Below the pieces are notes generated by a model. The model had not been told where the DNA came from and made no database searches. It saw only the letters and a program-made list of their open reading frames with translations. DNA of 50,018 nucleotides from a candidate division Zixibacteria bacterium RBG_16_53_22. Its GTDB lineage: Bacteria; Zixibacteria; MSB-5A5; UBA10806. The DNA lies in NCBI GenBank assembly GCA_001775395.1, contig MEWP01000155.1:1-50018 (forward strand). The letters are read 5' to 3'. A program made the translations under genes and the position numbers. Shown here piece by piece: positions 7,685 through 24,500 of this stretch. The first letter of the stretch is position 1; each line of letters begins with the position of its first letter.

Positions 7685-8587
7685 TTACATGCCCCGCGCG
7701 GTCAGAACTACTATCACTGTCCTGACGATAATTCTCAAATCCTGGAACAGGCTCCAATTGCTGATATAGCGAAGGTCGTAAACGATCTTCTTGGAAACAT
7801 CCTCGATGCACTCGTCATATTTGTGCTCTACCTGGGCCAGTCCGGTAATACCCGGCTTGACATCGAAACGGCGAGAATAGTCCTTTATCCGGCAGTTGAG
7901 ATCACAAACGAAGCAAATTCTCTCAGGCCTGGGCCCTACCAGACTCATGTCGCCCATCAAAACGTTGACTAATTGCGGCAACTCATCGATCCTGGTGGCT
8001 CTTATGAAACGGCCAACCCGCGTGACACGCGAGTCGTTTTTCTTAGCCCAGGTGGGACCAGTTTTCGATTCGGCGTCATTGCGCATGCTGCGGAATTTGA
8101 CTATCATGAATGTCTTGCCATAGCCAACCGCCCGCCGCCGATCCTGAAGAGACCTTCTTTCCAGATTGCCTGTAACCGTTACGGCGCGGCGTCCGCCTCT
8201 ACGACGATTCTGGCCGACTCTCTCCTGCCTGTAGAAAATCGGACCAGGAGAGTCAAGCTTGATCGCGATTGCCACCGCAAACCAGACAGGCGAGGTGAGG
8301 ACAAGCCCAAAACCTGCGCCGGCGATATCAAGTGTTCGCTTGGATATCGCGCCGAGACTAACGCGCCGGATTGCGGCCGCGACAACTCCCCTCAGGCCTA
8401 TCATCAGAGGTTGATTCAGGATTAATTGTAGTGCCAGATAAAAGTTGGCGAATAGAATCTCCCCCATGACATAATTAAGATAGAACCCGGCTTTCCGGGA
8501 TACCCCGAGCCTAAAACCCCAAACGCGGACAATTTCCTCTTCCCAATAATGTCCGAGCGGAGTTGGACCAGGATATTGATATCTCAT
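7685..8587 (-). CDS. Polyprenyl-phosphate phosphoglycosyl transferase (bacterial sugar transferase) with Arg-rich insert
   Basis: A 300-residue monotopic enzyme of the WcaJ/WbaP family (PF02397). It transfers a sugar-1-phosphate from a UDP-sugar to undecaprenyl phosphate, starting exopolysaccharide assembly on the inner membrane. Seen directly: KRTLDIAGAGFGLVLTSPVW (residues 83-102, re-entrant helix), SPGPIFYRQERVG, KFRSMR (164-169), the catalytic DELPQLVNVLMGDMSLVGPR (201-220) and GITGLAQV. The family usually goes almost directly from QERVG to the strand before KFRSMR; here about 30 basic residues (127-157, RRR, RR, ERR, DRRR) are inserted. The gene stands alone, with a sigma-54 promoter match and a palindrome upstream and a terminator downstream. 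It probably primes the polymer exported by the operon at 8896-13414. Confidence 0.93.
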   Translation of the reverse strand: MRYQYPGPTPLGHYWEEEIVRVWGFRLGVSRKAGFYLNYVMGEILFANFYLALQLILNQPLMIGLRGVVAAAIRRVSLGAISKRTLDIAGAGFGLVLTSPVWFAVAIAIKLDSPGPIFYRQERVGQNRRRGGRRAVTVTGNLERRSLQDRRRAVGYGKTFMIVKFRSMRNDAESKTGPTWAKKNDSRVTRVGRFIRATRIDELPQLVNVLMGDMSLVGPRPERICFVCDLNCRIKDYSRRFDVKPGITGLAQVEHKYDECIEDVSKKIVYDLRYISNWSLFQDLRIIVRTVIVVLTARGM

Positions 8588-8652
8588 ACGTTAATCTATC
8601 TCCATGTTAGTCTGATTATCAGTCAATTACTCTGTTGCCGGCTTATTGAGAT

Positions 8653-8667
8653 GCAAATTCATTGCCA
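8653..8667 (-). promoter_or_regulatory. Sigma-54 (-24/-12) promoter match for the sugar transferase gene
   Basis: The minus strand reads TGGCAA-TGAAT-TTGCA, matching TGGCA-N6-TTGCA with exact spacing and preceded by a T-run. The predicted start near 8641 gives a leader of about 54 bases. RpoN promoters depend on an enhancer-binding activator; one is encoded at 36965-38299. Confidence 0.65.
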
Positions 8668-8684
8668 AAAACAGCTTAGAGGGC

Positions 8685-8702
8685 AATGTGAAATTTCACA
8701 TT
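8685..8702. promoter_or_regulatory. 18-bp perfect palindrome upstream of the -24 box
   Basis: AATGTGAAATTTCACATT is its own reverse complement. It lies 18 bases upstream of the -24 element of the sigma-54 match, about -42 to -60 from the predicted start. It is probably a dimeric regulator site: an activator site unusually close for sigma-54, or a repressor/anti-activator site. The TGTGA/TCACA half-sites recall CRP-family operators, but the spacer is four bases instead of six. Confidence 0.55.
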
Positions 8703-8895
8703 ATCGACGAGGCTTGCTGCCCGGAACGGCGACTTTAATCCATTGCGATACTTGCTGTTACACAGATGGAACGGTAGTTAAGCTGGCGACTAATCGGTGT
8801 AAATAGAACTACTATGCTATTAAAGAGACAAGTCTATGTCATGAATATATGCAAAATTATGCAAAAATACTGCAGGATGGCATTTTCCCGGGTAG

Positions 8896-9612
8896 TCAAT
8901 CCGATTTCAATACTTTTTGATGATAGTGGTAACCATAATATTTTTCTTTGTAATAATATGGCAGCACTTCCTCGAAATCGTTCAAGATGACGCCGAGGAC
9001 ATTTATCTTCGAATTGGTCAGAAGGTTGGCGGCCCTTTGAACGACCTCCCGCTGAGTAGTGCCACCGCGAACCACCAGCAAGACGCCATCCACATGCTCT
9101 GCCAGCAGAAGCGGATCCGAGATCGGAATTATCGGCGGCGAATCGATAATGACATAATCGAAGTAGAATCTCAACTCCTGGAAAATATTGGCCACCGTGC
9201 TTTGGTCAAGGAAATCGCTGGGCACGCCCTTCAGTCTGCCGGACGGGATAACTGTCAGGTTGGGGATAATGGTCTTGCGCGAAACCAGCTTCAGGGTAGA
9301 CTCTCCGGAAAGAACATTACCGATTCCCTCGCTCTCGCCAATTCCAAAATATAGGTTGATCTTGGGTCGCCGAAGATCGAAATCAACGAGCGCCACCTTG
9401 AGCTTGGTAAGCTCCGCAATTGTCACGGCCAGCAGGGAGCTGGTCAGCGATTTGCCCTCGCCGACCATGGCCGATGTAACCATGATGGTCTGCAGTTTGC
9501 GGTTAGTCGAGAGGTTCTTGATATTCGAATAAAGCCGGCGAAATTCCGTGCCGACCGAGGATTCCTTATTATAAAACGACAGAATCGATGGGATAACCTT
9601 ACTTCTTTTCAT
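8896..9612 (-). CDS. Polysaccharide-type tyrosine autokinase (BY-kinase, CpsD/CapB-like)
   Basis: A 238-residue cytoplasmic kinase. Seen directly: Walker A SAMVGEGKS (residues 47-55), Walker A' VALVDFDLRRP (73-83), Walker B YVIIDSPP (153-160) and a C-terminal tyrosine cluster between 219 and 230 (seven Tyr in twelve residues). These define BY-kinases that cycle between phosphorylated and free states to drive polysaccharide polymerisation. It lacks its own membrane domain, so it would need the Wzz-like protein at 10733-12322 as activator, as in Gram-positive CpsC/CpsD; in most Proteobacteria the two are fused. The start overlaps the TPR gene by four bases. It is the last gene of the long operon. 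Confidence 0.94.
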   Translation of the reverse strand: MKRSKVIPSILSFYNKESSVGTEFRRLYSNIKNLSTNRKLQTIMVTSAMVGEGKSLTSSLLAVTIAELTKLKVALVDFDLRRPKINLYFGIGESEGIGNVLSGESTLKLVSRKTIIPNLTVIPSGRLKGVPSDFLDQSTVANIFQELRFYFDYVIIDSPPIIPISDPLLLAEHVDGVLLVVRGGTTQREVVQRAANLLTNSKINVLGVILNDFEEVLPYYYKEKYYGYHYHQKVLKSD

Positions 9613-10736
9613 CTGACAATTGCCTCCAAGAGAACTTCGAATCCCTTTAGGTCATTCTGGGAAAGCTTGAGATTCCTGGCGGCTTTGACGAAATTTGGAT
9701 TAATTTTAAGGGCCTCCTTGAAGTGTTCCATGGCCTTGTTGTTGAGGAACTTGCTCATCACGGTATATGCCATACCGAGTTCGTTATGCAGGTCGGCGTG
9801 GCCGGGATTGGATTTGAGCAGTTCGCTGATCTGCTCGACATATTGCTTGATGCCCTCCTCGGTCATGCCGCTTTCACCATGAATATACCTCAGGTACATT
9901 TCGAGGAGTCGTTCCTCCGAACCATGCGTTATGACCTCGCGTCCCATGGCGGTCAGGATCTCGTAGGCCTGCTGCAATTTCCCTTCCCCGAGGAGATTTA
10001 TCCCCATTTCGTAGTTCCCATTCATATAGCCGGGGTTGAACATGATGGCTTTGCCAAATGCCTCCTGGCAATTATGGAACAGGTTCTTGGCCAGGTTAAA
10101 ATCCTCGCGGACTATGCCGTTCATGATAAAGCCCAGGCCGAGGTTGAAATAGGCCTCGTCATAATAAATGTTTTGTTCAACCGCCTTCTTGAATTCGTCG
10201 ATTGCGGCCACAGGTTTTCCGGCGTTGAGGTAGGCGATCCCAAGCAGGTTGCGATAATCGGGAAACGACGGGGCCAGCTCGACAGCCTTGCATGACTGCT
10301 CGACGGCCTCGTCGAACAAGCCGCGGGCCAGGTATAATTTTCCGAGAACGAAATGCAGACCCGGCATCTCAGGATATTTCTGGACCGCCATGGTGAGAAG
10401 CTCGCGGCCCTCGTCATACAGCTCGCGGTTACACAGGGTCTTGCCGAGTTTCTCGATTATCTCGGGCTTATCGAGTTGCTGCATCCGCTCCACGAGCCCC
10501 AGCAGAGATTTGAAGTCGCCGAGGCACTGCTCGTGCATCCTGGAAACACGTTCGAGAAGAGCTCCGGGGCCGAGACTCTCCGGCATGGGAAAGGCCCTCG
10601 TGTTTATAAGCTGCCCGGAGTGAAAGAGTGAGCAGATTATCTGCCGTCGAAGCTCATTAGCCGAGGTCTGAAGCAGATACTCCCTGCCCAGGCGCCTGAA
10701 TTTGTCGGAGAAACCAATAGCCGGCATGGGAATCAC
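9609..10736 (-). CDS. TPR protein of the polysaccharide operon
   Basis: A 375-residue protein with no signal peptide. From residue about 95 onward it consists of tetratricopeptide repeats with typical spacing: GRELLTMAVQKYPEMPGLHF, GLFDEAVEQSCKAVELAP, GKPVAAIDEFKKAVEQ, then GKLQQAYEILTAM and a last unit AMEHFKEALKINPNF. The first 90 residues are helical and carry no recognised motif. It sits between the Wzz-like and kinase genes with four-base overlaps on both sides, so the three proteins are made together and a scaffold role between co-polymerase and kinase is plausible. TPR proteins linking export and synthesis are known in other polysaccharide systems (AlgK, PelB/E, BcsC), but those are periplasmic; this one looks cytoplasmic. 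Confidence 0.85.
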   Translation of the reverse strand: MIPMPAIGFSDKFRRLGREYLLQTSANELRRQIICSLFHSGQLINTRAFPMPESLGPGALLERVSRMHEQCLGDFKSLLGLVERMQQLDKPEIIEKLGKTLCNRELYDEGRELLTMAVQKYPEMPGLHFVLGKLYLARGLFDEAVEQSCKAVELAPSFPDYRNLLGIAYLNAGKPVAAIDEFKKAVEQNIYYDEAYFNLGLGFIMNGIVREDFNLAKNLFHNCQEAFGKAIMFNPGYMNGNYEMGINLLGEGKLQQAYEILTAMGREVITHGSEERLLEMYLRYIHGESGMTEEGIKQYVEQISELLKSNPGHADLHNELGMAYTVMSKFLNNKAMEHFKEALKINPNFVKAARNLKLSQNDLKGFEVLLEAIVR

Positions 10737-12322
10737 CCGTTCCTTTTAAAATTTAAGAATATGATCAGCAGCACCAATATGAAGCTGACGCTGACCCCTA
10801 TCGCGATTGGGACCTTCCTCTTGCCTGTATCGGAGAACGGAATCTCCATCCTGGGTATGGTTCCGATCACCGGCAACTGGAGATGTTCGGTGACATCCTC
10901 GACCTTCTTGAAAGAGTTGTCGAGAAGCTCGACCAGCATGATAGCCCCAACACCGATCATCAGGCCAAGGGCGATGCCCATTCCCAGAATTCTTATTCGA
11001 TTGGGCGAATCGGGAGATAGCGGCAATGGGGCGGCCCTGATAATCGTAAATTTGGCCTCGGCCTCGACCTTCTTGGCGGATTGGCTGATTGCGGCGTTCT
11101 GAGAATGCGATACGAAAAGATCATAGAAGCGCTCATAGCTGTTGATTTCGCTTTGCAGCCGGGCCATGGTGATCTCCGTGGCCGGATCCTCGCCAACCAT
11201 GGTCTTGGCCTTAAGGATGTACTGGTCGAGAATGGCTCTCTTGGCGCGATTGAAATCGATTTTAATGTTGCCGGTGAAGTATTCGCCAATCAGAGACCTC
11301 AGTTCCTGGCTATAATTCGGAAAACGCTCCTCCACCCATGCGCCGATGTCGTTGGTCAGCTCGACTATCAGATTCCTGGCCTCTTCGTTAAGGCTGTAAA
11401 TTCTGATATCGCGCCAGTCATAGCTGGCCAGGAGATCCGAAAGGCGACTGGCGGTATTCAGCAGCTTGTCTCTCTTGGCGGTTACCGGGGCGGGCAGGCT
11501 GATCGAGGCCATGTCGACATTTTCTTGGTCAAGCCTTGTCCGCAGCGCGGCCTGAATATCCTGCTGATTGGATATGTCGAGATCGAGGGTCTGTACGGCA
11601 ACGGAGACCTCTCTCAGGGTAACGCCGGTGGTATCCTCACCGAAACTCGAGGTCAACAGGCTGGTCCTGTAGTTGCGGAGCTTGTCTTCGGCGTTCTTGA
11701 GCTTCTCTTTGTAAAAGGCCAGTTGTTCGTCGGAAAACGCAATGCTTGATGTCACTCCGGCCAGCTCCGCGGCAAGATTCTCCTCGATGAATATATCGGC
11801 CAGTGCCGCCGCCGTCATCTGCGCGGCAACGGGGTCGGATGACGTGAACGAGACCTCGATCAGATTATTGGCCGTCATTTCAACCGCCACATTCTTGCGA
11901 ATTTGATTGGCCAGTATGTTTTCGGCCAAATCATTCTCGGAAATCTGGGGGTAATTGGCTTTGGTGGAGGCCACAATCTTCTTGATGCTCTCGGTAATGG
12001 GAATATTCATGGTGGCGATAAGCCGTCTCAAGTATTTGGTGGACGTTATCTGATTGCGGTAAGATATCTCCCTTTCCCCGAGTGTGATGCGTCCATATTC
12101 AAAGCCTCTGCGGCCCTCGAAATCGCGCTCCACAGTTATGGGCAGCACCTGCAGATCATTCAGCAATATGGTGACCGAGGAAACATAGGTCGGAGTCATG
12201 AAATAGGTAATCAGAAACGCGACCAGCGGCACAATCATCAGGGGAATGACGATGAGCGTCTTGCGCCTGCTCAGTATGGCCCAATAGCTCTTAATATCTA
12301 TCTGAGTTTTTTCATTATTCAA
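10733..12322 (-). CDS. Wzz/GumC-like polysaccharide co-polymerase without kinase domain
   Basis: A 529-residue inner-membrane protein. The N-terminal Wzz segment (IDIKSYWAILSRRKTLIVIP) leads into a first helix at about 22-42, and a long periplasmic region is rich in coiled coil (residues about 190-420). The proline-rich APLPLSPDSPNR then precedes a second helix at 445-467. Unlike Wzc, the cytoplasmic end stops after LQLPVIGTIPRMEI, and a third hydrophobic helix (504-525) follows. The kinase is encoded separately two genes downstream. Family members set chain length and form the periplasmic part of the export channel. The gene lies 12 bases after the Wza-like gene and overlaps the TPR gene by four bases. 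Confidence 0.92.
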   Translation of the reverse strand: MNNEKTQIDIKSYWAILSRRKTLIVIPLMIVPLVAFLITYFMTPTYVSSVTILLNDLQVLPITVERDFEGRRGFEYGRITLGEREISYRNQITSTKYLRRLIATMNIPITESIKKIVASTKANYPQISENDLAENILANQIRKNVAVEMTANNLIEVSFTSSDPVAAQMTAAALADIFIEENLAAELAGVTSSIAFSDEQLAFYKEKLKNAEDKLRNYRTSLLTSSFGEDTTGVTLREVSVAVQTLDLDISNQQDIQAALRTRLDQENVDMASISLPAPVTAKRDKLLNTASRLSDLLASYDWRDIRIYSLNEEARNLIVELTNDIGAWVEERFPNYSQELRSLIGEYFTGNIKIDFNRAKRAILDQYILKAKTMVGEDPATEITMARLQSEINSYERFYDLFVSHSQNAAISQSAKKVEAEAKFTIIRAAPLPLSPDSPNRIRILGMGIALGLMIGVGAIMLVELLDNSFKKVEDVTEHLQLPVIGTIPRMEIPFSDTGKRKVPIAIGVSVSFILVLLIIFLNFKRNG

Positions 12323-12334
12323 GACACAGCTCCT

Positions 12335-13414
12335 CTATCTTGTCAGGAGGATCACCGTTCCCGCCGCCCCAATTATGGGTATAAAACTTGCAATTGTGCC
12401 CATCGTCGAACGGAAAAATCCCTGGCCCCTGGCGGGTACTATAATTGTATCCTCGGGATGGAGTATCAAGCGGGCCGGGCGACCGGTTTCAATATATTCC
12501 TCGAGATTGACTCTTACGATGCTGGCATATCGCCTGTCTTTGATAATGATCCTGACATTTTTCAAGTCGGCTTCGGGAGTAAAGCCCCGGGCAACCGCCA
12601 CGGCGTCTAATAGGTCCATTCCGGATTCGAGGTTCCTCGGCCCCTGCTCGTTAACCTGCCCGAAAATATAATAGATATTTTTGCCGGCCGGCGCGGCGGA
12701 TGCCGAGGGCAACTCAAGAGGTGTGCCCAGTGTCGACAACGGAACATTCACCAGGTCCCCGGCCTCGAGTTGAGGGGCTCTCGAAAGATCGCCTTCCTGT
12801 ATGATGCTGTAAAGGTTGACATCGATAACATCCGATCTTGCGCCCTCCCTGCGGACGATGGAAACGCGCGCCAGATCGGCATCGGCCAACGGCCCGCCGG
12901 CATCGAGTATGGCGGTCCAAATATCGGGCATCTTCTCGTAGCGATATGGGCCCGGCATTTGTACCTGGCCCGCCACCACGATACTCCGGGAGTTGAACTC
13001 CAATACGGTCACCGTAGCCTGCGACACCGGGGTATTATAAATGCTCATCTGCTGGATGATCCTGCCCGCCAGCTGCGATGTCGTTAGTCCGGCGGCCTTG
13101 ATTTCACCGATGACCGGCAGGCTTATGGCCCCATCCTCGCCGACACGGACATCGCGATTGAGATCGGGTTGTTGCCAGAAGGTTATGGATAATCTATCCG
13201 TGTTGCCGATCAGATACGGCGAGGTCTGGTCTGCTCCCCGTGCCGTCTGATTGTCAGCGGGCGCCTGCAACAGCTTATCCCCATGCTCGATCGAGATTCC
13301 TTCCCGGGCGTAAAGGCGACCATCACCCCGGCCGAGGATGATGATAATCGGTAAAAGCAGGATGGCAAGCTTGAAGATTGGCGTATTAGAAAATAGATTC
13401 CTGATGGCTTTCAT
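12335..13414 (-). CDS. Outer-membrane polysaccharide export protein (Wza/GumB-like)
   Basis: A 359-residue exported protein. The Poly_export motif YLIGNTDRLSITFWQQPDL starts after a signal peptide, followed by ISLPVIGEIKAAGLT, then two SLBB-type modules (SIVVAGQVQMPGPYRYE and IYYIFGQVNEQGPRNLE). A hydrophobic C-terminal stretch may span the outer membrane. I chose the ATG at 13414 because it lies 5 bases after AAGGGGG and gives a normal signal peptide (MKAIRNLF...); an upstream in-frame ATG at 13462 would overlap the cyclase gene by 77 bases. Even so the overlap is about 29 bases, showing tight coupling of c-di-GMP synthesis and export genes. No lipobox is evident, unlike E. coli Wza. Confidence 0.92.
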   Translation of the reverse strand: MKAIRNLFSNTPIFKLAILLLPIIIILGRGDGRLYAREGISIEHGDKLLQAPADNQTARGADQTSPYLIGNTDRLSITFWQQPDLNRDVRVGEDGAISLPVIGEIKAAGLTTSQLAGRIIQQMSIYNTPVSQATVTVLEFNSRSIVVAGQVQMPGPYRYEKMPDIWTAILDAGGPLADADLARVSIVRREGARSDVIDVNLYSIIQEGDLSRAPQLEAGDLVNVPLSTLGTPLELPSASAAPAGKNIYYIFGQVNEQGPRNLESGMDLLDAVAVARGFTPEADLKNVRIIIKDRRYASIVRVNLEEYIETGRPARLILHPEDTIIVPARGQGFFRSTMGTIASFIPIIGAAGTVILLTR

Positions 13415-15230
13415 CATATCCCCCTTCCGCGGGATGCGAATCCAAAGTAAAATCGGATTCATACATTATAGCCCGATTTCTGCCGAGCGATTTGGCTTTC
13501 AGAAGAGCCATATCGGCACAGTAAATAAGCCTGTCCGCAGTGAAAGCGTCACGCGGATAGACTGCCCCTCCCACGGAAATTGTGATACTGCTCCCTTTCG
13601 GAAACAAGTAAGATTCAAATCGCGATTCGGCGATTTGGGAACGCAAACGCTCGATAAACACTGTGCAGTTTCCGACCCCCGTGTCGGGCATGATGATGCA
13701 GAATTCCTCTCCCCCATACCGGCTGACTACATCGATGGACCTGATGGTCCTGGTGATGAGGTCCGAAAGCTGCTTCAAAATCAGATCACCCGCCTGGTGG
13801 CCGTAATTATCATTGAAAGACTTGAAATTATCTATGTCGAGGATTACCAGGGCCAACTCGCGTTCATAGCGCTTGGCCCGCAGGATTTCCTCGCTCAGCC
13901 GCTTGTAGAAATATCTGTAATTATAAATCCCGGTCATGCTGTCGGTATACGACAGTTTTTCAATCGTCGAATACTGATAGATATTATCCAGCGCCAACGA
14001 GGCGATATTGCTCACCACAAATAAAAAATCCATATCCGGGCTGGAATACTGCGTCCGGTCGCTTTTCTCTCCGACGAGCAAGATACAGGCCGTCTTACCG
14101 CTGGCCTTGATCGCCGATACCGCCGCTATCCCGGCCGCGATGGCCTGGTTCAGAAACGGTTCATCGCGCTTCATCCCCGAGGCGGCCAGCGGAAGCAACA
14201 CGGGTTTCGGCGATTTCATTATCAACTCACACAGCTCTGTCTCACAATCGAGGGCAAGTTCAATTGACGGCCGCTCTCCGGATAACGATTGCCGGATCGT
14301 AAACTTGCCATCTCCCGAGGGCACCAGGATCTCCGCTATCGCGGTTCGCAAATGAGCCCGCACAATATCGACCAGTGCCTGAAAAAGCTGTTCCTCGTTG
14401 AATAATGAATAGAGCTCATTCGAAACTTTCACGAATGATTGAATGTCAATCATTTTATTCTTTAGTTCCCGGCTGAGTTCGGCCAGATCCCGCCTGGCCT
14501 GGTCGAGTTGCCGGCTCATCTGACGCGATTCGGTATTCCTGTCGAACAATCTCTGGTTTATACGCATACAATAGTCGAGGCCCGGCCAGAAAATCTTGTT
14601 AAATTCGGCATCTTTCGCCAATTGCGTCAAATCGCCATGGGGATCATCGGCAATGACAAGCACCGCGCGGCCCCTGCCCCAGGAATAACCAAAGGCGACC
14701 GGCGCTGACATATTATCGATCTCACCATTCTTATAAGCCAGCCTGACATCGCTCTCCAGAGTCGAGAATACGCCTTCCGGCATACCGCGTTTTAGGCCGT
14801 TGCTCAGTCGATGTATTTGCGGCGACGCCAGGCTGTTCCTGTTTAGTCCCGCCAGTATCCTGGGTATGAATCTGTCATCTTCCCTGGTGAAAATAACGAA
14901 TTTGTCAAGCCTGAGGTTCTCCTTGATAAGTTCCTGGGCTGCGGCAAGAAAAGGACGCTTGTCGGACCCGGCCAGGAGCGATTCCGCTAAGAGCTTGTAG
15001 GCTATGGCGTTATCTGTCTGCGGCTGAAGTTTTGTGAGATTGGATATGATGGAAATATCTGCATACGAACTGATGATTTTTCTCGCCAGAAGATACGCCG
15101 CGACAATCAAGATGGCTGTAAGGGAGGCCGTAATCCATAAGGAGCCAAATATAAAGGCCGTTGCCAGGACAACGGCGCACAACAGGATCAAGACCAGCGA
15201 AATAAGCCATGGTCCGGGCCGGGCAAGCAT
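13386..15230 (-). CDS. Membrane diguanylate cyclase with GAF-like sensor region
   Basis: A 614-residue protein. Two helices at 6-27 and 31-49 anchor it; residues about 60-220 and 265-415 look like two GAF-type sensor domains joined by a short coiled coil (235-265). The C-terminal GGDEF domain holds LVILDIDNFKSFNDNYGHQA (D465 metal ligand) and the catalytic RYGGEEF (504-510). RSID at 497-500, five residues upstream, is an intact inhibitory I-site. It should make c-di-GMP and be feedback-controlled. It starts three bases after the STAS stop and its end overlaps the Wza-like gene. No EAL or HD-GYP domain is present in the window, so degradation must occur elsewhere. Confidence 0.94.
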   Translation of the reverse strand: MLARPGPWLISLVLILLCAVVLATAFIFGSLWITASLTAILIVAAYLLARKIISSYADISIISNLTKLQPQTDNAIAYKLLAESLLAGSDKRPFLAAAQELIKENLRLDKFVIFTREDDRFIPRILAGLNRNSLASPQIHRLSNGLKRGMPEGVFSTLESDVRLAYKNGEIDNMSAPVAFGYSWGRGRAVLVIADDPHGDLTQLAKDAEFNKIFWPGLDYCMRINQRLFDRNTESRQMSRQLDQARRDLAELSRELKNKMIDIQSFVKVSNELYSLFNEEQLFQALVDIVRAHLRTAIAEILVPSGDGKFTIRQSLSGERPSIELALDCETELCELIMKSPKPVLLPLAASGMKRDEPFLNQAIAAGIAAVSAIKASGKTACILLVGEKSDRTQYSSPDMDFLFVVSNIASLALDNIYQYSTIEKLSYTDSMTGIYNYRYFYKRLSEEILRAKRYERELALVILDIDNFKSFNDNYGHQAGDLILKQLSDLITRTIRSIDVVSRYGGEEFCIIMPDTGVGNCTVFIERLRSQIAESRFESYLFPKGSSITISVGGAVYPRDAFTADRLIYCADMALLKAKSLGRNRAIMYESDFTLDSHPAEGGYDESHQESIF

Positions 15231-15233
15231 TTA

Positions 15234-15962
15234 TCAATTTCCTCCGGTTTTCAGCCTGGCGCGTCTGAACCTGTTCTTCTTGCTCAATAGATGTTCGCGG
15301 CGGAGAATCCCCCAGATTCTCCACCAGCCGACCTTCATCTGAGGGTTCTTGCGGGAAAGCTCACGCTTAATTTCCCCGATGGTCAGAAAGGGGTCTTTGG
15401 ATATCATCTCCAGGATAATTTCCTGGATACCGGGAATCGACGGTTTCGGCTGAAGCGTAACGGCTTTCTCTGCGACCGCCTCATCTGCCTGCGGGACAGC
15501 CTGGGCCACCTTAACCTTGGTGGTCGGCGGCTGGGAAGGGGCCGGATCGAGTCTTATGGGGGCTTCAACGGCTACGGCCACCTCATTTGCAACCGTCTGC
15601 TTCCTGAGGGCATCAAAATCGGTCTTGGCCTTCTCGACACTATCGAAGGCCTTGAGAATGCTGTCGAATTCGAGCAGCTCGAATATCTCGTAAACGTTGG
15701 GTATCATGCGGGCCAGCTTGATATCGCCCGAATGCTGCCTGATCTCCCTTATATTTGAGATGAATATTCCCCATCCGGCGGATGAAATGTAATCCACACC
15801 ACCGAGATCGATGACGATATTATACCTCCGGCGTTCCAGAAGCGAATTCATCACCTTCTCCAGATCGGTGGCTGTCATCGTATCTACGACTCCATCGACC
15901 CGGACAATCGAAATCTCCCCTTTGGGGCCGGAAGTGTCGAGAGAAATTCTTATGTCACTCAT
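15234..15962 (-). CDS. STAS-domain protein with C-terminal winged-helix-like tail
   Basis: A 242-residue cytoplasmic protein. Residues 1-115 form a STAS (SpoIIAA-like) domain with YNIVIDLGGVDYISSAGWG. The residue just before the conserved Gly, Ser58 in B. subtilis SpoIIAA, is Ala62 here; S60 and S61 are the nearest possible phosphosites. A Pro/Ala/Val-rich linker (125-175) leads to a basic helical domain at about 176-236 (IQEIILEMISKDPFLTIGEI, KRELSRKNP, WWRIWGILRREHLLSKKNRF) that looks like a winged helix. The gene lies between the ParA ATPase (8-base overlap) and the cyclase (3-base gap). It is the expected client of the kinase/phosphatase at 16731-19652. The DNA-binding role is inference. 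Confidence 0.87.
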   Translation of the reverse strand: MSDIRISLDTSGPKGEISIVRVDGVVDTMTATDLEKVMNSLLERRRYNIVIDLGGVDYISSAGWGIFISNIREIRQHSGDIKLARMIPNVYEIFELLEFDSILKAFDSVEKAKTDFDALRKQTVANEVAVAVEAPIRLDPAPSQPPTTKVKVAQAVPQADEAVAEKAVTLQPKPSIPGIQEIILEMISKDPFLTIGEIKRELSRKNPQMKVGWWRIWGILRREHLLSKKNRFRRARLKTGGN

Positions 15963-16734
15963 AATCCCCCAAACCAGTTAACCTTTCGAGGACTTCCTTG
16001 GATAATTTGAAATAGTCGTATGCCCCATGGGAATAAGGAGCAAACTCAAAAATGGTCTTGCGGAACCACTGAGACTTCTTGATCTCGGTATTGGTCCTGA
16101 TTTCCGTTTGAAAAACGAGGTTCCCATATGTATTCCTCAAGGAATCTAGGGCCATCCTTGAAACATTGGTCCGCCTATCATAAAATGTCGGCAAAACTCC
16201 CAGAATTTCAAGTTTTCCCCGGCCATCGGCGCCGCTGCCGTTGCCATTCGCCCTGATTTCGTGGGACAGCTCGATTGTCGATTTGACGCCCTCCAGCGAG
16301 AAATAATCGAGCGACGATGGGATGATCAGGAAATCCGCGAACGCCAGGGCATTCAAATTTACGATATTTATGGATGGCGAGCAATCCAATATTACCCAGT
16401 CACATCCCGAAAGCCGCGAAAACGTGTTTTTCAATCTGACGAATCTATCCTCACGGGCCGCCAGGTTGATTTCCAGCTCGGCCAGGCGCTTTTTGCCCGA
16501 GGGGATTAAATAGAGACGCGGCCGCACCTGATATATATCTACCCTACCCTCGATAAGAAGATCGGCCAACCCCTTATGGCCGTCGACACCGAAAGCGGCC
16601 GAGGCCGAACCCTGGGGATCGCAGTCGACAATCAACACTTTCCGGCCCGACAGCGCCAGTCCGTGCCCGAGGTTGATGGCGGTCGTGGTTTTGCCGGTGC
16701 CGCCCTTTGAGGTCAGGATAGCCAGTTTAATCAT
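15955..16734 (-). CDS. ParA/Soj-family ATPase in the polysaccharide operon
   Basis: A 259-residue cytoplasmic Walker ATPase. Seen directly: deviant Walker A SKGGTGKTTTA (residues 9-19) with the signature lysine K10, VLIVDCDPQGSAS with Walker A', and WVILDCSP. The family forms ATP-dependent dimers that bind DNA or membranes and position plasmids, chromosomes or large protein complexes. No parB gene or parS-like repeats are next to it, and it is co-transcribed with a STAS protein and export genes, so cargo positioning (orphan ParA, as in ParC or PpfA systems) fits better than plasmid partition. It overlaps its upstream neighbour by four bases and the STAS gene by eight. Confidence 0.92.
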   Translation of the reverse strand: MIKLAILTSKGGTGKTTTAINLGHGLALSGRKVLIVDCDPQGSASAAFGVDGHKGLADLLIEGRVDIYQVRPRLYLIPSGKKRLAELEINLAAREDRFVRLKNTFSRLSGCDWVILDCSPSINIVNLNALAFADFLIIPSSLDYFSLEGVKSTIELSHEIRANGNGSGADGRGKLEILGVLPTFYDRRTNVSRMALDSLRNTYGNLVFQTEIRTNTEIKKSQWFRKTIFEFAPYSHGAYDYFKLSKEVLERLTGLGDYE

Positions 16735-19652
16735 TTCTTATCGTATTTTTCCGACAGCTTCTTGCTGTACTCATCCCAGTCGAATTCAGCGCCCTTATCG
16801 ACTTTGTCGACCTTGTCGACCTCAGACGCCGACTGCACTACGTCAATGGAATTTGAACCATCCCCGAGGTCAGCCAATTCGAACTTGTCATCAAGATCGC
16901 TATGTTCCTGAGTATGCCCGGATGTAAAGCTTGGCGATTTTGGTCCCGTATCTTCAATAAATGAATCGGCCGGTGTGGTGGCAAGAGATTTCTCGTTTTT
17001 CGTCTCGGGCATGACCGCCTCCGCAGCTTTCTTGTCACGCCCTATAACCGCCATCTTCAGAATGATATTCTCAAAGAGTCTGGCGATATCCTCGCCCCCC
17101 CCGAGTTTGGCCAGCTCATCGGCGATATCTCCATAGAGATTCATGTCGCCGAGCACCGGTTCCATCTGCCGGAGCTTGGCGATAATTTCGTTGGCCGCCG
17201 CGCTGGCATGTTCCTTCTTGGCATCCAGGCTCTTCTTTATCTCTTCCAGGTATTGGCTGCGGTCGATCTCCTCCTTCTTACCGTGCTCTTTCAATATTTC
17301 TTTCTCGAGTTCGGCGCTCATCTCCGGGGTCAGGGCCCCGATCCTCTCGATATATTCCAGGCGCAGCTTTCTTGTATTCAACCGCATGCGAACCAGTTCC
17401 TCATAGAGGCCATGCTGATCGATAACCTCGATGCCGCGCCGGGCCAATTCCTCGGCCAGCCGTTTTGTGCCAAAGTCCGGATTCTCGCGAACCAGATTGA
17501 GGATCTCCTTACGGACCTCATAGGAAACCTGCTTGATATTCGAGTCGGCTCTAAGGCGCTTATTGAGAAGGCCGATATCCCCCAGTTTCTGCCAGCGTCG
17601 TCGGTATTTGTAATATGTCGACGGCGAGACACCCATACTGCGGCAGGCCTCCTCGAGCGGAATGCCCTCGTTTTCGACCATCTCCATGAGCCGCTTCCTT
17701 TTCTCGAAAACGACCTCGTCAAGCATCAGCTTCTCTTTTATGACGACCAATGTAATATCATCGTTCTGGGGAGCGCCGCCGGTGAACCGGGCCAGCTCGG
17801 CATCCAGCTTTTTCGTGAACTCCTCGGGGGCGAGCTCGGAATTGGCTTTGATGAATTCGACCAGCCGCTCGTTGCCGAACTGCTCGCCGAGTTTGTTCAT
17901 GGCCTCGGTAATACCGTCGGTGTAGACAATAAGCATGTCGTCTTTCTTGAGTTGGAGCCGGTCGAATTCGAGCGATTCCTCAAAACTGACACCCTCGGGC
18001 AGGGCGATCCCCAGCGGCATGCCGCGGGTGTTGAGGAAGTAGCACGAATCGGGGTCTTTCCGATAAAGTATCATGGGATTGTGGCCGGCGGAGGCGTAGG
18101 AAATGGTGCGGCGCGCCGAATCGAGCGTGATGAAGAATATCGTGATGAACATGCCGCGCTTGACGTCATCGGTGACAAATAGATTGACTCGCGACAGGAT
18201 ATCGGTCGGCGAATAATTGCCCCGCGCCTCGAGCCGCAGCGCCGTGCGGATCATGGTCATGACCAGCGACCCGGGCACTCCCTTGCCGGAAACGTCGGCG
18301 ACTATGATGCCGAGAATGTTCTCATCGATCTGAACGAAATCGAAGTAGTCTCCGCCGACATCCTTGGCCGCGCGGTAGACAGTCGAGATGTCGTACCCCT
18401 CGATATCGGGGAAGCGCCGAGGGAGAAGCGCGTGTTGAATCTCCTGGGCAACCTGCATCTCTTTCTGGAGACGCTCCTGCTCCACCACCGTCTCCTGGGC
18501 TTTCCTGAACTTGCTGGTCATTTCGTTGAAGGCCCGCGCGATTTCGGAGAATTCATCCGCGCCCTCGATCGGCAGAGTCTGATCGAGGTTGCCCTCGCCG
18601 ATTCGCATGACGCCCTCGGTCAATTTCTGGATCGGCTTGACAAAGTAGTTCGATAGGGCGAATACGGCGATGAATCCGATGACGAGGCCCAGGAAACTGA
18701 TCACGACGAGATTCCTCCGGGCCCCGGCGATATCGGCCTGAAGCGGCCGTTCCCGCAAACCGAAATATGCGTAGCCAACCACGTTATCGCGGATCTTGAC
18801 CGGAACTCTAAAGTGAAATTCCTTGTGTCCGGAGGAGTCGGGCATGGTGGCTTTCGAATTGTAATCGGACGAGTCGCGCTCTTCGAATCGCGAGAGGAAA
18901 CGCCACGACGCCAGGGGGTCGGCGGCGATAATTCCGCTAATGTCGGTGACGACCACATATGAGAAGTCTTTATTCGAGGCCAGCCAGGCGGTGGCCGAAC
19001 GAATCAGGTCGGGATCTTTCATGATCGTCTTATCGCCGATATCGGCCACGAACGATTCCGTGCTTGTCTGGGCCGACCGAAAGAACCTGGCCCGCGTATT
19101 GACACGCACTTGATGATCGAGATACAGGTAGACGCCGGAAACTATGGCAAAAACCACCAGAGAGGCCCATAAGGCAAACTTAACCCTGATGGAGACACCA
19201 CGGGCACGAATTAAATTCTCCCCGGCCCTCTCGATCTTTTTCTCCATCCTCAATTCGTTTTCGCCATCGCGCGCGAAATACTCCACCGAATCCATCATCT
19301 TGCGGATCAGGTAGAGCCCGAGGCCGCCTTTGCGGCCGGTGCGGACATAGCGGTCGAGATCCGGAACCTCGGAATGGCCAAAATCGAATTTCCGACCGCG
19401 ATCATAGATGGAGAAAACGACCCTGTCCTGATGGAGCCTGATACGTATCCTGATGGAACCCGGTCCGTATAAGTAAGCGTGGCGGATTACATTTGTGCAG
19501 GCCTCCTCGATAGCCAATAAGACGCTGTTGACGGCTTTCTGCGAGAGCGGGGACTCCGAGAGAACGTTGCGAACACTGCTGCGGATATCCTCAAGCTGAT
19601 CCTCAGCCGCGGGAAATGTCATGAAGATATCTTTTGAAAATTTTCTTGCCAT
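16731..19652 (-). CDS. Transmembrane RsbW-like kinase / PP2C phosphatase fusion with HTH tail
   Basis: A 973-residue multidomain regulator. Residues 1-140 are an HATPase of the RsbW/SpoIIAB type (E50/N54 in EEACTNVIRHAY, D84-R-G, G2 loop GRKGGLGLYLI at 106-116). A helix (157-178), an extracytoplasmic sensor (180-310), a second helix (313-335), a HAMP domain (336-390) and coiled coil follow. Residues about 400-640 are a SpoIIE-type PP2C phosphatase with intact acidic motifs (GGDYFDF, DVSGKGVPG, SAGHNP, YTDGITEA, QNDDITLVV). Residues 650-770 resemble the paired HTH of IS3/IS481-type transposases (MGVSPSTYYKYRRRW, FGTKRLAEELARRGIEV, LVRMRLNTRKLRL), then an acidic disordered tail. Opposing kinase and phosphatase in one chain recall SypE of Vibrio fischeri. 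No ribosome binding site is visible. Confidence 0.9.
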   Translation of the reverse strand: MARKFSKDIFMTFPAAEDQLEDIRSSVRNVLSESPLSQKAVNSVLLAIEEACTNVIRHAYLYGPGSIRIRIRLHQDRVVFSIYDRGRKFDFGHSEVPDLDRYVRTGRKGGLGLYLIRKMMDSVEYFARDGENELRMEKKIERAGENLIRARGVSIRVKFALWASLVVFAIVSGVYLYLDHQVRVNTRARFFRSAQTSTESFVADIGDKTIMKDPDLIRSATAWLASNKDFSYVVVTDISGIIAADPLASWRFLSRFEERDSSDYNSKATMPDSSGHKEFHFRVPVKIRDNVVGYAYFGLRERPLQADIAGARRNLVVISFLGLVIGFIAVFALSNYFVKPIQKLTEGVMRIGEGNLDQTLPIEGADEFSEIARAFNEMTSKFRKAQETVVEQERLQKEMQVAQEIQHALLPRRFPDIEGYDISTVYRAAKDVGGDYFDFVQIDENILGIIVADVSGKGVPGSLVMTMIRTALRLEARGNYSPTDILSRVNLFVTDDVKRGMFITIFFITLDSARRTISYASAGHNPMILYRKDPDSCYFLNTRGMPLGIALPEGVSFEESLEFDRLQLKKDDMLIVYTDGITEAMNKLGEQFGNERLVEFIKANSELAPEEFTKKLDAELARFTGGAPQNDDITLVVIKEKLMLDEVVFEKRKRLMEMVENEGIPLEEACRSMGVSPSTYYKYRRRWQKLGDIGLLNKRLRADSNIKQVSYEVRKEILNLVRENPDFGTKRLAEELARRGIEVIDQHGLYEELVRMRLNTRKLRLEYIERIGALTPEMSAELEKEILKEHGKKEEIDRSQYLEEIKKSLDAKKEHASAAANEIIAKLRQMEPVLGDMNLYGDIADELAKLGGGEDIARLFENIILKMAVIGRDKKAAEAVMPETKNEKSLATTPADSFIEDTGPKSPSFTSGHTQEHSDLDDKFELADLGDGSNSIDVVQSASEVDKVDKVDKGAEFDWDEYSKKLSEKYDKK
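16795..16823 (-). repeat. Triplicated 9-base micro-repeat in the kinase/phosphatase tail
   Basis: Three near-identical copies of a CTTGTCGAC-type unit encode the repeated residues VDKVDKVDK at about 945-953 of the regulator, in its disordered tail. It is a likely replication-slippage site and may vary in copy number between strains. Confidence 0.6.
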
Positions 19653-19710: not shown

Positions 19711-21531
19711 TTATTCTTGCTTGTTGCCGCTCTCGGTAGCCAAACGTTGCCTGGCCTGGCCGATATTATTCTCGAGGTCGGAATTATTCGGATAATACTG
19801 TCGCAGACTCTCCCAGCTTTCGAGGGCCTTCTTATAATCGCCGGCCTGGTAACTTTCGAGGCCATGAAGGTAGACAGGCCAGTACTCCGAATTTGATTTT
19901 ATGTCAGTTAAGCTTGTAGCAGGAGCCGACTTAGCCCTTGCCTCCGAAAGCAAAGATTGAATGGTCTTGTCATCAGGCCTGAGTACCTGAGCCTGGTTCA
20001 GGAGCGTAACGGCATCGGAAAACTTACCATCGTTTATTGCCCGTATGGCAGAGGCCATGAGATCGTTGGCTCGCAGCTCGGAGCGCGAGCTCTCCACTCC
20101 AGCAAGCGCCTCGGAATCCCTGGATTCAAGCGTCAGCAGGCGGTTCCATTCGATTATGGCGTCGGAGTGGTTCCCGGACTGCCTGAAGGAGCGGGCCCGG
20201 CGACGGATGGCATCGATTTCGTTGCTCCGCGTAGTCCTGGCGGATTGAAGAAGATCAGCCACCGACTCATTGGCGGGATCGATCTCGAGGGCCAATTCGT
20301 ATTGCGTGATGGCCTGATTGAATCGACCGGCCTTGATATCCGCAAGGGCGGCCTCTATCCGCTTAGCGGTAAGTTCCTCGCGTCTCTCGTCGCGAGCCCC
20401 GGCGCTGGCGCTTGTAATGATAATGTTCATCATGCTATCGGCCATAGCTTTGGCTTTTGCCGAGGTCTCGTCAATAACCAGCGCCCGCTGGTAATTAATG
20501 AAAGCGTCCTGATACTTCCGGGCGGCGTATAGGCTGTCGCCATTCGAAAGATAGAGCGCATAATCGAGCGAACGTTGCTGATCGAGTGACTTCTGCCAGT
20601 TGGCCCTTTCGGTCTCGATGGCTTTGACGACCATTCGGTCACGCGACTCCCTGACCGATTTGCCAAACGAGAATCCGAGCGACACGCGATGGCTTCCGCC
20701 CAGGAATTCGATATTTTCGTAGGCGTAATCCAATTTGAAGATGCTATAGGCAACTCCCCCACCGAACGTCATCCTGTCATGGTCATAGCCGGCGCGCAGG
20801 GAGAATGATTCATAGAATGCCATCTCTAAACCGGGATGAACGCGGGTATCGCGCCCACCGATTTTCTCAATCTCCGTCACAACGGCGGCGTCGAGATTCC
20901 TGTGCAATTCTCGCCCATATGAAACGCCGAATCTCGAGACGGTCTGATACTTATCCTCAGTGGTGCGAAGCTTGATTCGAGGCTGGACCAGGTCGGCAAG
21001 CCCGATACCGACGCGCATGCCCGGAACGAACTCAGGGCTGTATTGAATTCCCAAATCCATGCCGAAGCCATACCCGGCATCATCGCCTATTTCGAGGCCG
21101 ACTCCCTTGACAGTTAGTCCTGCGGAAACGCCGTAGCCAAGAGCGCGCGCATAGGAAATGCCGAGCAGGATATCAGCCGCCGAGAATGTATCCTCGGGAC
21201 GGTTGAATTGATCACGTTCGACGATGTCGCCGGTGCCAAGCCGCCCGGCCGAAAGCGTGAAAACCCCCAGCATTCCAACCGGGTGCGAGAGAGCCAGGCA
21301 ATCGTAGTTAGTGCCCATGAACAGCGAGGTATGGAAGGCGGAAAATTCGCTGCGATCGATGCCGGCGGTTGCGGCCGGATTGGAAAAAGCCGATGAAGCG
21401 TCGCCCGAAAGCGACACAAATGCCCGGCCCATGGCCATTCCGCGGGCCCCGGCGCCCAATGAAAATGGCGACTCGCGCCCGGCGTCGCCCTGGGCGAAGA
21501 CAGTTGCAGATCCGAAGAGCAGGATCAGCAA
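19711..21531 (-). CDS. PorV/UPF0164-like outer-membrane barrel fused to TPR repeats
   Basis: A 606-residue envelope protein. The signal peptide ends at SATVFAQG. The N-terminal half shows features of the PorV/PorQ (UPF0164) family: SLGAGARGMAMGRAFVSLSG, DASSAFSNPAAT, then alternating strands with RAGYDHDRMTFGGGV. Residues from about 310 on are tetratricopeptide repeats (SLDYALYLSNGDSLYAARKY, GRFNQAITQYELALEIDPAN, AGDYKKALESWESLRQYYPN). PorV-type proteins escort cargo of the type IX secretion path in Bacteroidetes; here the cargo could be the giant protein encoded just upstream. The start is odd: TTG at 21531 gives a leader without basic residues, whereas ATT at 21567 follows GAGGAGG and gives a normal signal peptide. 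No ATG, GTG or other TTG lies between. Confidence 0.86.
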   Translation of the reverse strand: MLILLFGSATVFAQGDAGRESPFSLGAGARGMAMGRAFVSLSGDASSAFSNPAATAGIDRSEFSAFHTSLFMGTNYDCLALSHPVGMLGVFTLSAGRLGTGDIVERDQFNRPEDTFSAADILLGISYARALGYGVSAGLTVKGVGLEIGDDAGYGFGMDLGIQYSPEFVPGMRVGIGLADLVQPRIKLRTTEDKYQTVSRFGVSYGRELHRNLDAAVVTEIEKIGGRDTRVHPGLEMAFYESFSLRAGYDHDRMTFGGGVAYSIFKLDYAYENIEFLGGSHRVSLGFSFGKSVRESRDRMVVKAIETERANWQKSLDQQRSLDYALYLSNGDSLYAARKYQDAFINYQRALVIDETSAKAKAMADSMMNIIITSASAGARDERREELTAKRIEAALADIKAGRFNQAITQYELALEIDPANESVADLLQSARTTRSNEIDAIRRRARSFRQSGNHSDAIIEWNRLLTLESRDSEALAGVESSRSELRANDLMASAIRAINDGKFSDAVTLLNQAQVLRPDDKTIQSLLSEARAKSAPATSLTDIKSNSEYWPVYLHGLESYQAGDYKKALESWESLRQYYPNNSDLENNIGQARQRLATESGNKQE

Positions 21532-21542
21532 TCCCGCATAGG

Positions 21543-24500
21543 CTACTTTACGACCGCGATTTTGAATTTTTCCTCCTCGCCTGTCCTTAAATTCTTAATC
21601 ATGCAAATGTAGACACCCGATCGAATTTCGGCGCCGATATCATTCTTGCCCTCCCAAACCAGCGCTGTTTCACCGGTATGCAGCCCGGCAGTGCCCAGCG
21701 GATCGGAAGCCGCCACGGTCCTGGTCCAGACAAGATCTCCGAGCAGAGTAAAGATCCTGATTTCAAGACCGGCAGCCGATGGCAAGAAATAGCCGATTTT
21801 CGTGCCGCCTTCCCTGGGATTGAATGGATTGGGATAGCTGGAGATAGAGGCCGCGAAGCTTTGTTCCACAACCGCAGTTGGATCAGTTTGCCAGCTTACA
21901 GGCTCGCCGCTTGGAGAGACAGGTAAGAGATCCTGAGCCACGATGCCATTTTCAATTACATGGGCGCTAACGAAATCATTACCCACGTGGATCGAAAAGT
22001 CGCGGACCGGCGTGCCCTCTTCGATATCGATGGCCAACGAGAATCGAACTCTGCCGGCCGGAGCGATATAGACGGTATCGGTCAGGTCGATCGAGAACCT
22101 GTTTTGATCAAAACCGCCAAATTCCGACGCCGACGAATCGGAAGTTACCAGAGCATTGGCAATAAGCTCGGAGGCCCCCATCGCCGGATTAGTTGCAATA
22201 TCGAAAACAAATCCCGTAACTGCGATCGGGAAATTGCCGCCAAAATCATTATTGAGAAGTTCAAATGTCAGAATCTGCAGATTCTGCCCTTTGAATACAG
22301 AGCCTTGATGCCCGGAGATGTCTGTCAACACCAGTTTGGGATAGAGTTCCCTGATCATGACCGGTACTGCCGTCGAATCAACAGTTACGGAGGCGGCCTG
22401 CCCGGTGTTGTCCTCGGTGGGAGTGTCGCTCAGAACTGCGGAAATCGGAACCGGGAAATTTACTTCGATCGATGGAATGCTGATGGTCCAGAAAATTGGC
22501 ACTCCTACAACGAAACTTCGGATCGGATTCTCCGTTGGAATCATGTCGGAGCGGCCAAGCCGCAGCCTCATCTGGCCATCGCTAACCGCCGCCACACCGC
22601 TGTTTTGGACAACGGCCTCGAATTGAACCTGGCTCCCCGGCTGCAGTATGCCGTCGATAGCAGTTGGCGGGCCGGCTATTCGCGAGGAAATGGCCAGCGA
22701 GGCGGCCGGCACGATAACCACGTCGATAAAGCGGGGCAAGGTTCCGATAGAATCCCCGGTATTAATATCATAAATCCAGGATGACAATATGATCGTGGCA
22801 TTTGCGGCGGCGGCTGGGGCGCGAAGATGCCAGGATGCCACATTCCCCTCAGGGAACTTAACCAAAGAGTCGTCTGTGGTAAAACCGTCCGGCAAATGCA
22901 GCCTTACTCCTTTTGAGCTATAAATGCCATTGGTAAAAAGGGTATCCGTTACAACGAAAATTTGATTGGTGGACAATTCCCTGTCAACGGCCCCCTGCGG
23001 TTCGGTGATTGCGGCCGAATGAGTAATAAACGGCCTGGTGTCAATTACGAAGTCGATGGTCGATAATGTATCGGGCCCGAACGCGCTGGTGTTATCATTT
23101 AGATCATAAATCTGGTTGGCAAAACTGACGATAAGCGGGGCGGAATCATAAGGATCGCTTGGCGCAGTCAAACTCCAGGTTACCGGTTGGCCGAGTTGGA
23201 AATCTCTGTCCAAGGAGTCGACCTCCCATCCGGTCAGGCCCGGATTGAGGAAAAGCCGCCGGCTGTCCGAAATGCCCGCCTGGCCAAGATTACTGACAGT
23301 AGCCGAAATTGTAACTGTCTGGCCGGTGGAAATTGTATCATCCATGGCCTCGGGCGGATCGACGACTGTTATGGGCGATATCGCCAGCGTGGCCGGTATC
23401 TCCACTACCAGCAGGGCAGTGTTATCGAGCGGTTGTATAATGCCGGCAGGATCGTGGCTGATGGCGCCTCGCCCGCCGACAACCGATGACGTAAACACCT
23501 CCCCTTCGGTGGAATCGGGAGCGGCGTTGCCGTGGAACATGATAGGCAGAATCTCGTGCCCGGCTATGCGAGGAACATGGATCGAATCGGGAAATGAGGA
23601 CAAATCCGCATGATCGAGGTGAACGAAAAGCGATTCGGCGGCCTCGTCCCCCATGTTTTCAATCACCACTATTATCGAACAGGCTTGCGCAGTATTCACC
23701 ATCGGTGCGTTGTGCGACAATGCGAAAGTGGAATTGAGCCGGACGGCGGCCGGGGTCAGAACTTTTACAGTATCAGCAGTTATGAATGAGACGACCTCCG
23801 GATGCCCGTTCTGATAACCGCTTAAGACGACATTCGGCCGGTAATTACCGGTTGTGAAATCCGATGGTACCATGACATGGGCAAAATTAAAGGTGGTATC
23901 GCCTTGACTGATGATGTCGATTCTATTCCCTGCGGATGTATCGGAATGAGCGATATATTCGCGCAAGCCATCGCCAAAGGAGAGCTGGGTATTCTGGTGA
24001 TTGACGATAAAGTCGGCACTGCCGGAATTATTGACTCGAATCGCGAATGACACTCTCTGGCCGGTCACCAGGCTGTCGATATTGAGACTTCCAGCGAGAT
24101 AAGTTATGGATGCCCTCGATTCGATCATCACGGGATCGGTAATCTGAATCTCACCGGTCCTGAATAGGCCATTTTCTATGCCATAAAAATGAAAGGCTCC
24201 CAGGTAGGAACCCGGCACGAATGCCTGATCCACGACTATCGAATCGAGCACGGCGATGACGCCCGAGGGAGAGTCTGGAGGCAGGTATATCGAGGATGAC
24301 AGTTCGGCTCTTATAGTGTGAACACCGTCGGTAAAGGTAAAATACGAGGTATCATATAGCGCCACCCCGGAAACCCCGGTGTTACCCAATCGCATGGAAA
24401 AGGCATATGTCAAAGCGGTGGAAAGGGTTTCAGGATATAAAGTGCCGGCTACGTAGACTGGAACTGAGCCTGCCGTCACGGAGAAACGATCCGGGAAACC

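Follow-up and report, generated by a model that had tools for sequence, protein, structure and literature searches.

A partner switch, a ParA-type ATPase and a diguanylate cyclase encoded together with a polysaccharide exporter in Zixibacteria

What might a partner switch, a ParA-type ATPase and the synthesis of cyclic di-GMP (c-di-GMP) have to do with the export of a polysaccharide? The question is raised by a locus of candidate division Zixibacteria bacterium RBG_16_53_22, a 3.86-Mb metagenome-assembled genome of the Zixibacteria (Zixiibacteriota), which lies in a stretch of 50,018 nucleotides (contig MEWP01000155.1 of assembly GCA_001775395.1, positions 1 to 50,018; hereafter, the window). 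On the minus strand, from 19652 to 8896, a check of the open reading frames (ORFs) yields eight genes that follow each other with no gap larger than 12 bp and encode a kinase/phosphatase (KP), a ParA ATPase, a STAS protein, a diguanylate cyclase, Wza-like and Wzz-like proteins, a tetratricopeptide repeat (TPR) protein and a BY-type tyrosine kinase (BYK). An earlier note, made from the letters of this DNA, had described eight such closely packed, mostly overlapping genes; all eight ORFs were recovered at the same positions, five of the seven junctions overlap, and Pfam agrees with each of the domain identities proposed. That description was right on the domains and on the eight genes but omitted the C-terminal helix-turn-helix (HTH) domains of the 973-amino acid (aa) KP and of the STAS protein, and left out the conserved neighbours upstream and downstream. 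We propose, tentatively (with a probability of about 0.42), that the locus encodes a surface-signalling unit for polysaccharide export, in which the signal would pass from KP to STAS, from STAS to the cyclase and from the cyclase to the exporter, with ParA acting on the receptor complex. The gene order, the coupling of the genes, the intact catalytic motifs, the shared HTH and the co-occurrence of a KP peptide with ParA are observed; from these we infer the direction of control from STAS to the cyclase, the action of c-di-GMP on the exporter and the docking of ParA.

The partner switch looks intact, judging by its motifs. KP (16731..19652; the eight genes and their parts all lie on the minus strand) matches the Pfam families HATPase_c_2, HAMP, SpoIIE, HTH_23/HTH_32 and, weakly, sCache, and is laid out as an RsbW-like kinase domain (residues 13-138), the weak sCache region (215-312), HAMP (333-380) and a SpoIIE-type PP2C phosphatase (447-639), beyond which follow a double HTH (about 651-762), a coil, a disordered linker and a C-terminal peptide; membrane spans appear to flank the sCache/HAMP region. 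The kinase domain (HATPase_c_2, 4.7e-29) is of the RsbW/SpoIIAB-like kind, with the N-box/G-box motifs EEACTNVIRHAY and GGLGL, and the phosphatase (SpoIIE, 1.7e-48) has all the metal-binding aspartate motifs (DVGGDY, ADVSGKG, TDGITE and DDIT), so that the KP of the window keeps every kinase and phosphatase motif. The STAS protein (15234..15962; Pfam STAS) consists of the STAS domain with an ISSAG motif, a linker and a C-terminal HTH. The motif, with Ser61, is invariant in 93 of the 93 orthologues; this serine aligns with Ser56 of SypA and is the putative phosphorylation site, and the predicted structure overlays that of SpoIIAA in its complex with SpoIIAB. KP, a membrane receptor with both kinase and phosphatase domains, would thus set the phosphorylation state of STAS at Ser61.

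The nearest candidate for the target of the switch is the diguanylate cyclase (13386..15230; Pfam GGDEF), with an N-terminal hydrophobic region, a weak GAF domain, a GGEEF active site and an RxxD I-site. The active site (GG[DE]EF) and the I-site (RxxD) are each conserved in 45 of the 48 orthologues, the window sequence being RSIDVVSRYGGEEF. The genome as a whole encodes two strong GGDEF proteins, with two further weak matches, no EAL protein and one PilZ protein; with so few strong GGDEF proteins and no EAL counterpart, the cyclase of the operon should matter. Control of the cyclase by STAS is the most economical reading, given two precedents: in Pseudomonas aeruginosa, SiaC binds SiaD directly and activates it, and the siaABCD operon controls aggregation and biofilm (PMC8457831); in Vibrio fischeri, the STAS protein SypA is a downstream effector, with an unknown target, under the kinase/phosphatase SypE (PMC10120452). 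On the model of SiaC and SiaD, dephosphorylated STAS would control the co-encoded membrane cyclase, whose c-di-GMP, produced nearby, would switch on the exporter. The Wza/Wzz/BY-kinase export set is complete: it includes an outer-membrane polysaccharide export (OPX) protein of the Wza type (12335..13462; Pfam Poly_export and two SLBB domains), a polysaccharide co-polymerase (PCP), the Wzz-like chain-length determinant (10733..12322; Pfam Wzz and, weakly, GNVR), and BYK (8896..9612; profile match), which has Walker A and A' motifs and a C-terminal tyrosine cluster and scores above the NCBIfam cut-off for ‘polysaccharide biosynthesis tyrosine autokinase’. The TPR protein (9609..10736; Pfam TPR), without an evident signal peptide, is encoded between Wzz and BYK.

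The cohesion of the locus is seen both in its junctions and in its recurrence. The start codon of ParA lies on the stop codon of KP (4-bp overlap), ParA and STAS overlap by 8 bp, a gap of 3 bp separates STAS from the cyclase, the overlap of the cyclase with Wza is 77 bp if the first ATG is taken as the start and about 32 bp if an internal one is, 12 bp separate Wza from Wzz, and both Wzz/TPR and TPR/BYK overlap by 4 bp. Profiles derived from the operon served to re-annotate the loci of 58 related genomes together with 80 named loci, and gene order was counted from stop-to-stop frames (antisense ORFs cover ParA or STAS in L034, L074 and L078; L-numbers are labels of relative loci). The order is not confined to this genome: it recurs in about 20 related genomes and is thus more than a chance arrangement, which upholds, as evolutionary linkage, the earlier proposal that the modules belong together. 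Genomes of the same family and the same order have the full KP-ParA-STAS-cyclase-Wza-Wzz-TPR-BYK order as far as their contigs extend, and many other families of Zixibacteria have the ParA-less order KP-STAS-cyclase-Wza-(Wzz)-TPR-BYK. Adjacency was counted for ParA-STAS (22/22), STAS-cyclase (43/55), cyclase-Wza (38/45) and Wzz-TPR (17/17); the KP/ParA overlap is kept in nearly all genomes, and that of TPR and BYK is likewise conserved in relatives.

The ParA of the operon (15955..16734; Pfam AAA_31/ParA) is Soj-like, with the deviant Walker A motif KGGTGKTT. Walker A is intact in 23 of the 23 sequences, and in an alignment of 13 sequences the deviant Walker A (KGGxGKT) with its signature lysine, Walker A' and Walker B are invariant; the closest sequence match in the PDB is the segregation protein Soj (1wcv, 7.6e-39), and no ParB is encoded in the operon. 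It is a distinct type, present in a single copy in each of 21 out of the 133 genomes of the phylum. Identity to the ParA of the window is 49-81% for the operon copies and at most 42% for the other ParAs of those genomes. As far as the sequences tell, this ParA is a lineage-specific insert. In the genomes examined, it adjoins KP on every contig that covers the two genes. In three loci (L043, L048 and L078) the exporter genes are encoded on the other strand, and L089 has none over about 9 kb downstream, yet in all four ParA remains between KP and STAS; ParA is therefore unlikely to be a part of the exporter. The proposal of the earlier note that ParA sets where the polysaccharide complex works is not borne out, as ParA tracks KP rather than the export genes, and many Zixibacteria have STAS, the cyclase and the export genes in order without any ParA. 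L089 and L091 combine ParA, KP and STAS with a short cyclase (334 aa) that lacks the N-terminal region, and have an extra 96-aa ORF between ParA and STAS.

What ParA does travel with is a peptide. The tail of KP is long and ends in [FWM]xxYxxKL in 20 of the 22 proteins with an adjacent ParA, compared with 0 of the 57 without one (the rate in shuffled sequences is 0.3%). In the window, the motif reads WDEYSKKL (residues 959-966; 16755..16778), and the AlphaFold2 model of the tail shows an isolated helix here (959-971), preceded by a linker with pLDDT below 50. Docking via short, charged, disordered termini is common among the partners of ParA-type ATPases (PMC10241942), and the C-terminal peptide of KP is a candidate ParA-docking tag. 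ParA, standing outside the exporter, would dock on this peptide and would cluster, distribute or hold the receptor complex relative to the nucleoid. Three KPs of the KSB1 type (L122, L136 and L142) have C-terminal TPR-like repeats in place of this peptide.

KP and its STAS substrate also share what is probably a DNA-binding or dimerisation domain. The HTH pair of KP (17358..17702, region of residues about 651-765), characterized by profile matches, AlphaFold2 and Foldseek, is of the transposase/paired type and matches the IS481 and HTH_23 profiles; its closest structural matches by Foldseek are TnsB and the DNA-bound paired domain of PAX6, at E values (about 0.15) short of significance. The C-terminus of STAS (residues 179-240; 15243..15428) is predicted with confidence to form a domain of four helices (pLDDT above 90), and the case for sharing stems from its homology to the second HTH of KP in a profile comparison (HHalign 98.3%, E 2e-14); a BLAST-style pairwise alignment of the two is not significant.

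In a ParA-less sister clade, the HTH of STAS may be optional. Of 94 distinct STAS genes, 21 have a run of nine or ten A (A9 or A10) 64-80 nt past the ELLEF motif, that is, between the STAS domain and the HTH; all 21 come from Zixibacteria without ParA. Over the 334 kb of the loci with the tract, 21 of the 23 A/T runs of at least 9 fall at this site. Runs of nine A are prone to slippage, and coding regions as a rule avoid them (PMC1088944). Tri-lysines are encoded as AAA AAA AAA in 22 of 25 cases in these STAS genes, compared with none of the 15 found elsewhere in those same labelled genes. Of the genes with the tract, 16 have the HTH in frame (e.g. L106:10375 and L088:8837), and five (L059:12440, L060:7551, L063:7842, L064:7272 and L137:2693) stop just past it, with the HTH in another frame. 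On the KP tree, the tract requires a single change, that is, a single origin, and among the genes that retain it the reading frame has changed four times or more. Programmed slippage is thus the likely source of STAS-only and STAS-HTH forms in this clade; the STAS gene of the window has no such tract. For L059, L060, L063 and L064, where STAS was called at 131-144 aa, loss of the HTH was considered and rejected in favour of a frame change at the tract.

The locus extends upstream beyond the eight genes. Immediately 5' of KP, on the same strand, is the gene for a protein with PorV-like (UPF0164) and TPR parts (19711..21531), and before it that for a very large secreted protein of 2605 aa with a CARDB domain (21543..29360). 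The PorV-TPR gene holds this position in 73 of 74 loci and is itself preceded by a gene for a very large secreted protein, with C-termini of the FlgD-Ig or CHU_C, type IX-like kind in the relatives. KSB1 and Calditrichota have the same core (large protein, PorV-TPR, KP, STAS), followed by DUF456/DUF4159 or housekeeping genes and not by the cyclase or exporter; only in Zixibacteria do the cyclase and export genes stand behind the core. Since the core is shared with these phyla while the genes that follow differ, the operon, judged by gene content, is layered: an old surface and partner-switch core, an output of Zixibacteria (cyclase and exporter) and the ParA insert. The 2605-aa protein and the PorV-TPR protein, upstream of KP in three phyla, are possibly the ligand or sensor side of the switch. 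STAS-HTH homologues without KP are found in L093, L103, L111 and L113; in L093 and L113 they adjoin a response-regulator-like protein, and in L093 also a subtilisin/FG-GAP secreted protein, so that the switch protein seems to be employed in another context there.

Several observations weigh against the proposed surface-signalling unit. HTH-bearing KP and STAS persist in KSB1 and Calditrichota without a neighbouring cyclase, and therefore the ancestral output should have been something other than the cyclase. Among the exporter proteins, none was recognized as a c-di-GMP receptor, and the only PilZ protein of the genome is encoded elsewhere. The peptide of KP is C-terminal, whereas known ParA-partner peptides are usually N-terminal, and the motif is degenerate in two ParA-bearing KPs (L042 and L043). 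KPs without ParA mostly have no such tail at all, so that the co-occurrence of motif and ParA is not proof of contact; furthermore, the genomes are related, so that the counts are not independent and testify to linkage rather than contact, and the P value of the co-occurrence takes no account of this relatedness.

In a different reading, the switch acts on DNA: KP as a membrane-bound and STAS as a soluble DNA-binding regulator, the latter released from or recruited to promoters via its HTH upon phosphorylation, with the cyclase and exporter as downstream genes and not partners. The IS481/HTH_23-like double HTH of KP with its weak matches to TnsB and PAX6, the homologous HTH of STAS, retained where no cyclase is nearby, and the A-tract, which would give STAS with and without the HTH, all fit such a switch, but the Foldseek matches fall short of significance, the HTH of KP is lost in many Zixibacteria although the STAS-cyclase order remains, a common operator was looked for and none was found, and HTH folds can serve protein contacts too; on balance, we consider it rather unlikely. 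Only slightly less doubtful is a possible extension of the main proposal, in which KP is a cargo adaptor of ParA: the peptide would recruit the dedicated ParA, the HTHs would contact DNA, and the phosphorylation and c-di-GMP hub would be placed or clustered relative to the nucleoid, with the HTH joined or cut by programmed slippage in the sister lineage. In this reading, the HTHs common to KP and its STAS substrate would be transposase-derived.

That ParA is instead a BcsQ-like assembly factor of the exporter, binding Wzz, BYK or the cyclase, or places the exporter in the cell, seems improbable. BcsQ, a polar ParA/MinD homologue, is essential for cellulose production in Escherichia coli (PMC5727187), and the window ParA matches the BcsQ model TIGR03371, albeit at 68.2 bits, far under the cut-off of 157.85; its closest solved relative by sequence is Soj, most exporters of this cluster in Zixibacteria have no ParA, and, as described above, ParA stays with KP and STAS where the exporter is inverted or missing. 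A classical anti-sigma switch, in which the kinase of KP would hold a sigma factor, STAS would free it, and the cyclase and ParA would be merely co-transcribed, agrees with the RsbW-like HATPase domain and the SpoIIAA-like model of STAS. It is disfavoured because no SigB/F/G-type sigma factor scores over the cut-off in this genome, and because KP unites kinase and phosphatase in a single protein, like SypE, whose STAS partner SypA acts as the downstream effector (PMC10120452); we give it very little weight. Mere co-transcription of modules without direct contact has, if anything, still less to commend it: expression alone can unite functions in operons, but KP and STAS have stayed paired in three phyla, the overlaps are conserved and the KP peptide co-varies with ParA.

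The signalling unit that we favour resembles several known systems in part. Like siaABCD, the locus combines in one operon a HAMP-bearing PP2C phosphatase, a kinase, a phospho-switch protein and a diguanylate cyclase, and the phosphatase part of KP and the cyclase match SiaA (1.5e-26) and SiaD (4.4e-44), at scores below the family cut-offs (93 versus 700 bits and 151 versus 290 bits, respectively). It departs from siaABCD in the union of kinase and phosphatase in one HTH-bearing polypeptide, in a switch protein that is a true STAS protein and carries an HTH, in the hydrophobic N-terminal region of its cyclase, and in the presence of ParA and exporter genes in the operon. With syp, which includes Wza/Wzc-like genes, it shares a STAS protein and a kinase/phosphatase encoded with polysaccharide export genes; however, SypE has a central receiver domain, whereas KP has HAMP and HTHs and no response-regulator domain, and the SypE/SypA pair is described without a cyclase, ParA or HTH. 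The bcs cluster, c-di-GMP-dependent as well, has a ParA/MinD-type ATPase in BcsQ (PMC5727187), but it serves cellulose synthase-dependent rather than Wza/Wzz export, and BcsQ binds secretion components, whereas the window ParA follows KP. The export protein, chain-length determinant, tyrosine kinase and transferase match XrtA/PEP-CTERM models best or nearly so, and relatives have a DUF3473 polysaccharide deacetylase beside the tyrosine kinase; assignment to that system was not adopted, with scores under the curated cut-offs (119 versus 180, 157 versus 279 and 135 versus 231 bits) and no exosortase found in the window (two are encoded elsewhere in the genome). As in the ParA/MinD cargo-positioning systems McdAB, ParC, PpfA and PomZ (PMC10241942), a ParA ATPase is encoded beside a candidate partner with a short disordered terminal peptide; here, that candidate is an HTH-bearing transmembrane signalling kinase/phosphatase, with its peptide at the C-terminus. 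Thus, the view that no known system links these parts holds for the full set, absent from the literature searched, and not for pairs of parts, known from sia, syp and bcs. No publication joining ParA to a partner switch or describing the full set was found in a search that left out most subscription journals; as a combination, and in its KP-ParA link, the locus looks new.

Downstream, the eight-gene operon probably ends at BYK, as indicated by a conserved sigma-54 promoter in every gap between BYK and the next gene, for an initiating sugar-phosphate transferase (Bac_transf; 7685..8587, minus strand), which would be a separate unit under sigma-54 control. In the window, where the gap runs from 8588 to 8895, a scan yields a perfect -24/-12 promoter TGGCAATGAATTTGCA (8652..8667, minus strand), and a TTGCATAATTTTGCAT repeat (8849..8864, minus strand) is a possible activator site, with TGCAT pairs at the same place in genomes of the same family and order and TGCAT repeats conserved 5' of the transferase gene in each distinct genome that has it. 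In 9 of the 9 distinct genomes with the transferase, the gap spans 250-600 bp and contains a perfect sigma-54 promoter; 41 perfect sites occur in the 3,867 kb of strand searched, none of them in loci without the transferase. RpoN is present, and a terminator-like hairpin (7644-7663) lies 3' of the transferase gene. An NtrC-type activator and a histidine kinase are encoded at 36965-40305. A perfect palindrome in the gap, TGTGAAATTTCACA (8687-8700), was dropped, as it is absent from the corresponding gap of the relatives, and a sigma-70 scan, with many minus-strand matches scattered within genes, was not used; no Rfam RNAs were found in the window.

If the proposed unit is real, it would be, to our knowledge, the first instance in which a partner-switching receptor has a positioning ATPase of the ParA type to itself, and would tie the site of c-di-GMP production to cell architecture and polysaccharide export. 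The slippage tract, if a real toggle, would be a further way of switching the HTH domain on a phospho-switch protein. With a cyclase beside STAS through most of the phylum, the locus bears directly on the downstream STAS target in syp, hmp and similar systems.

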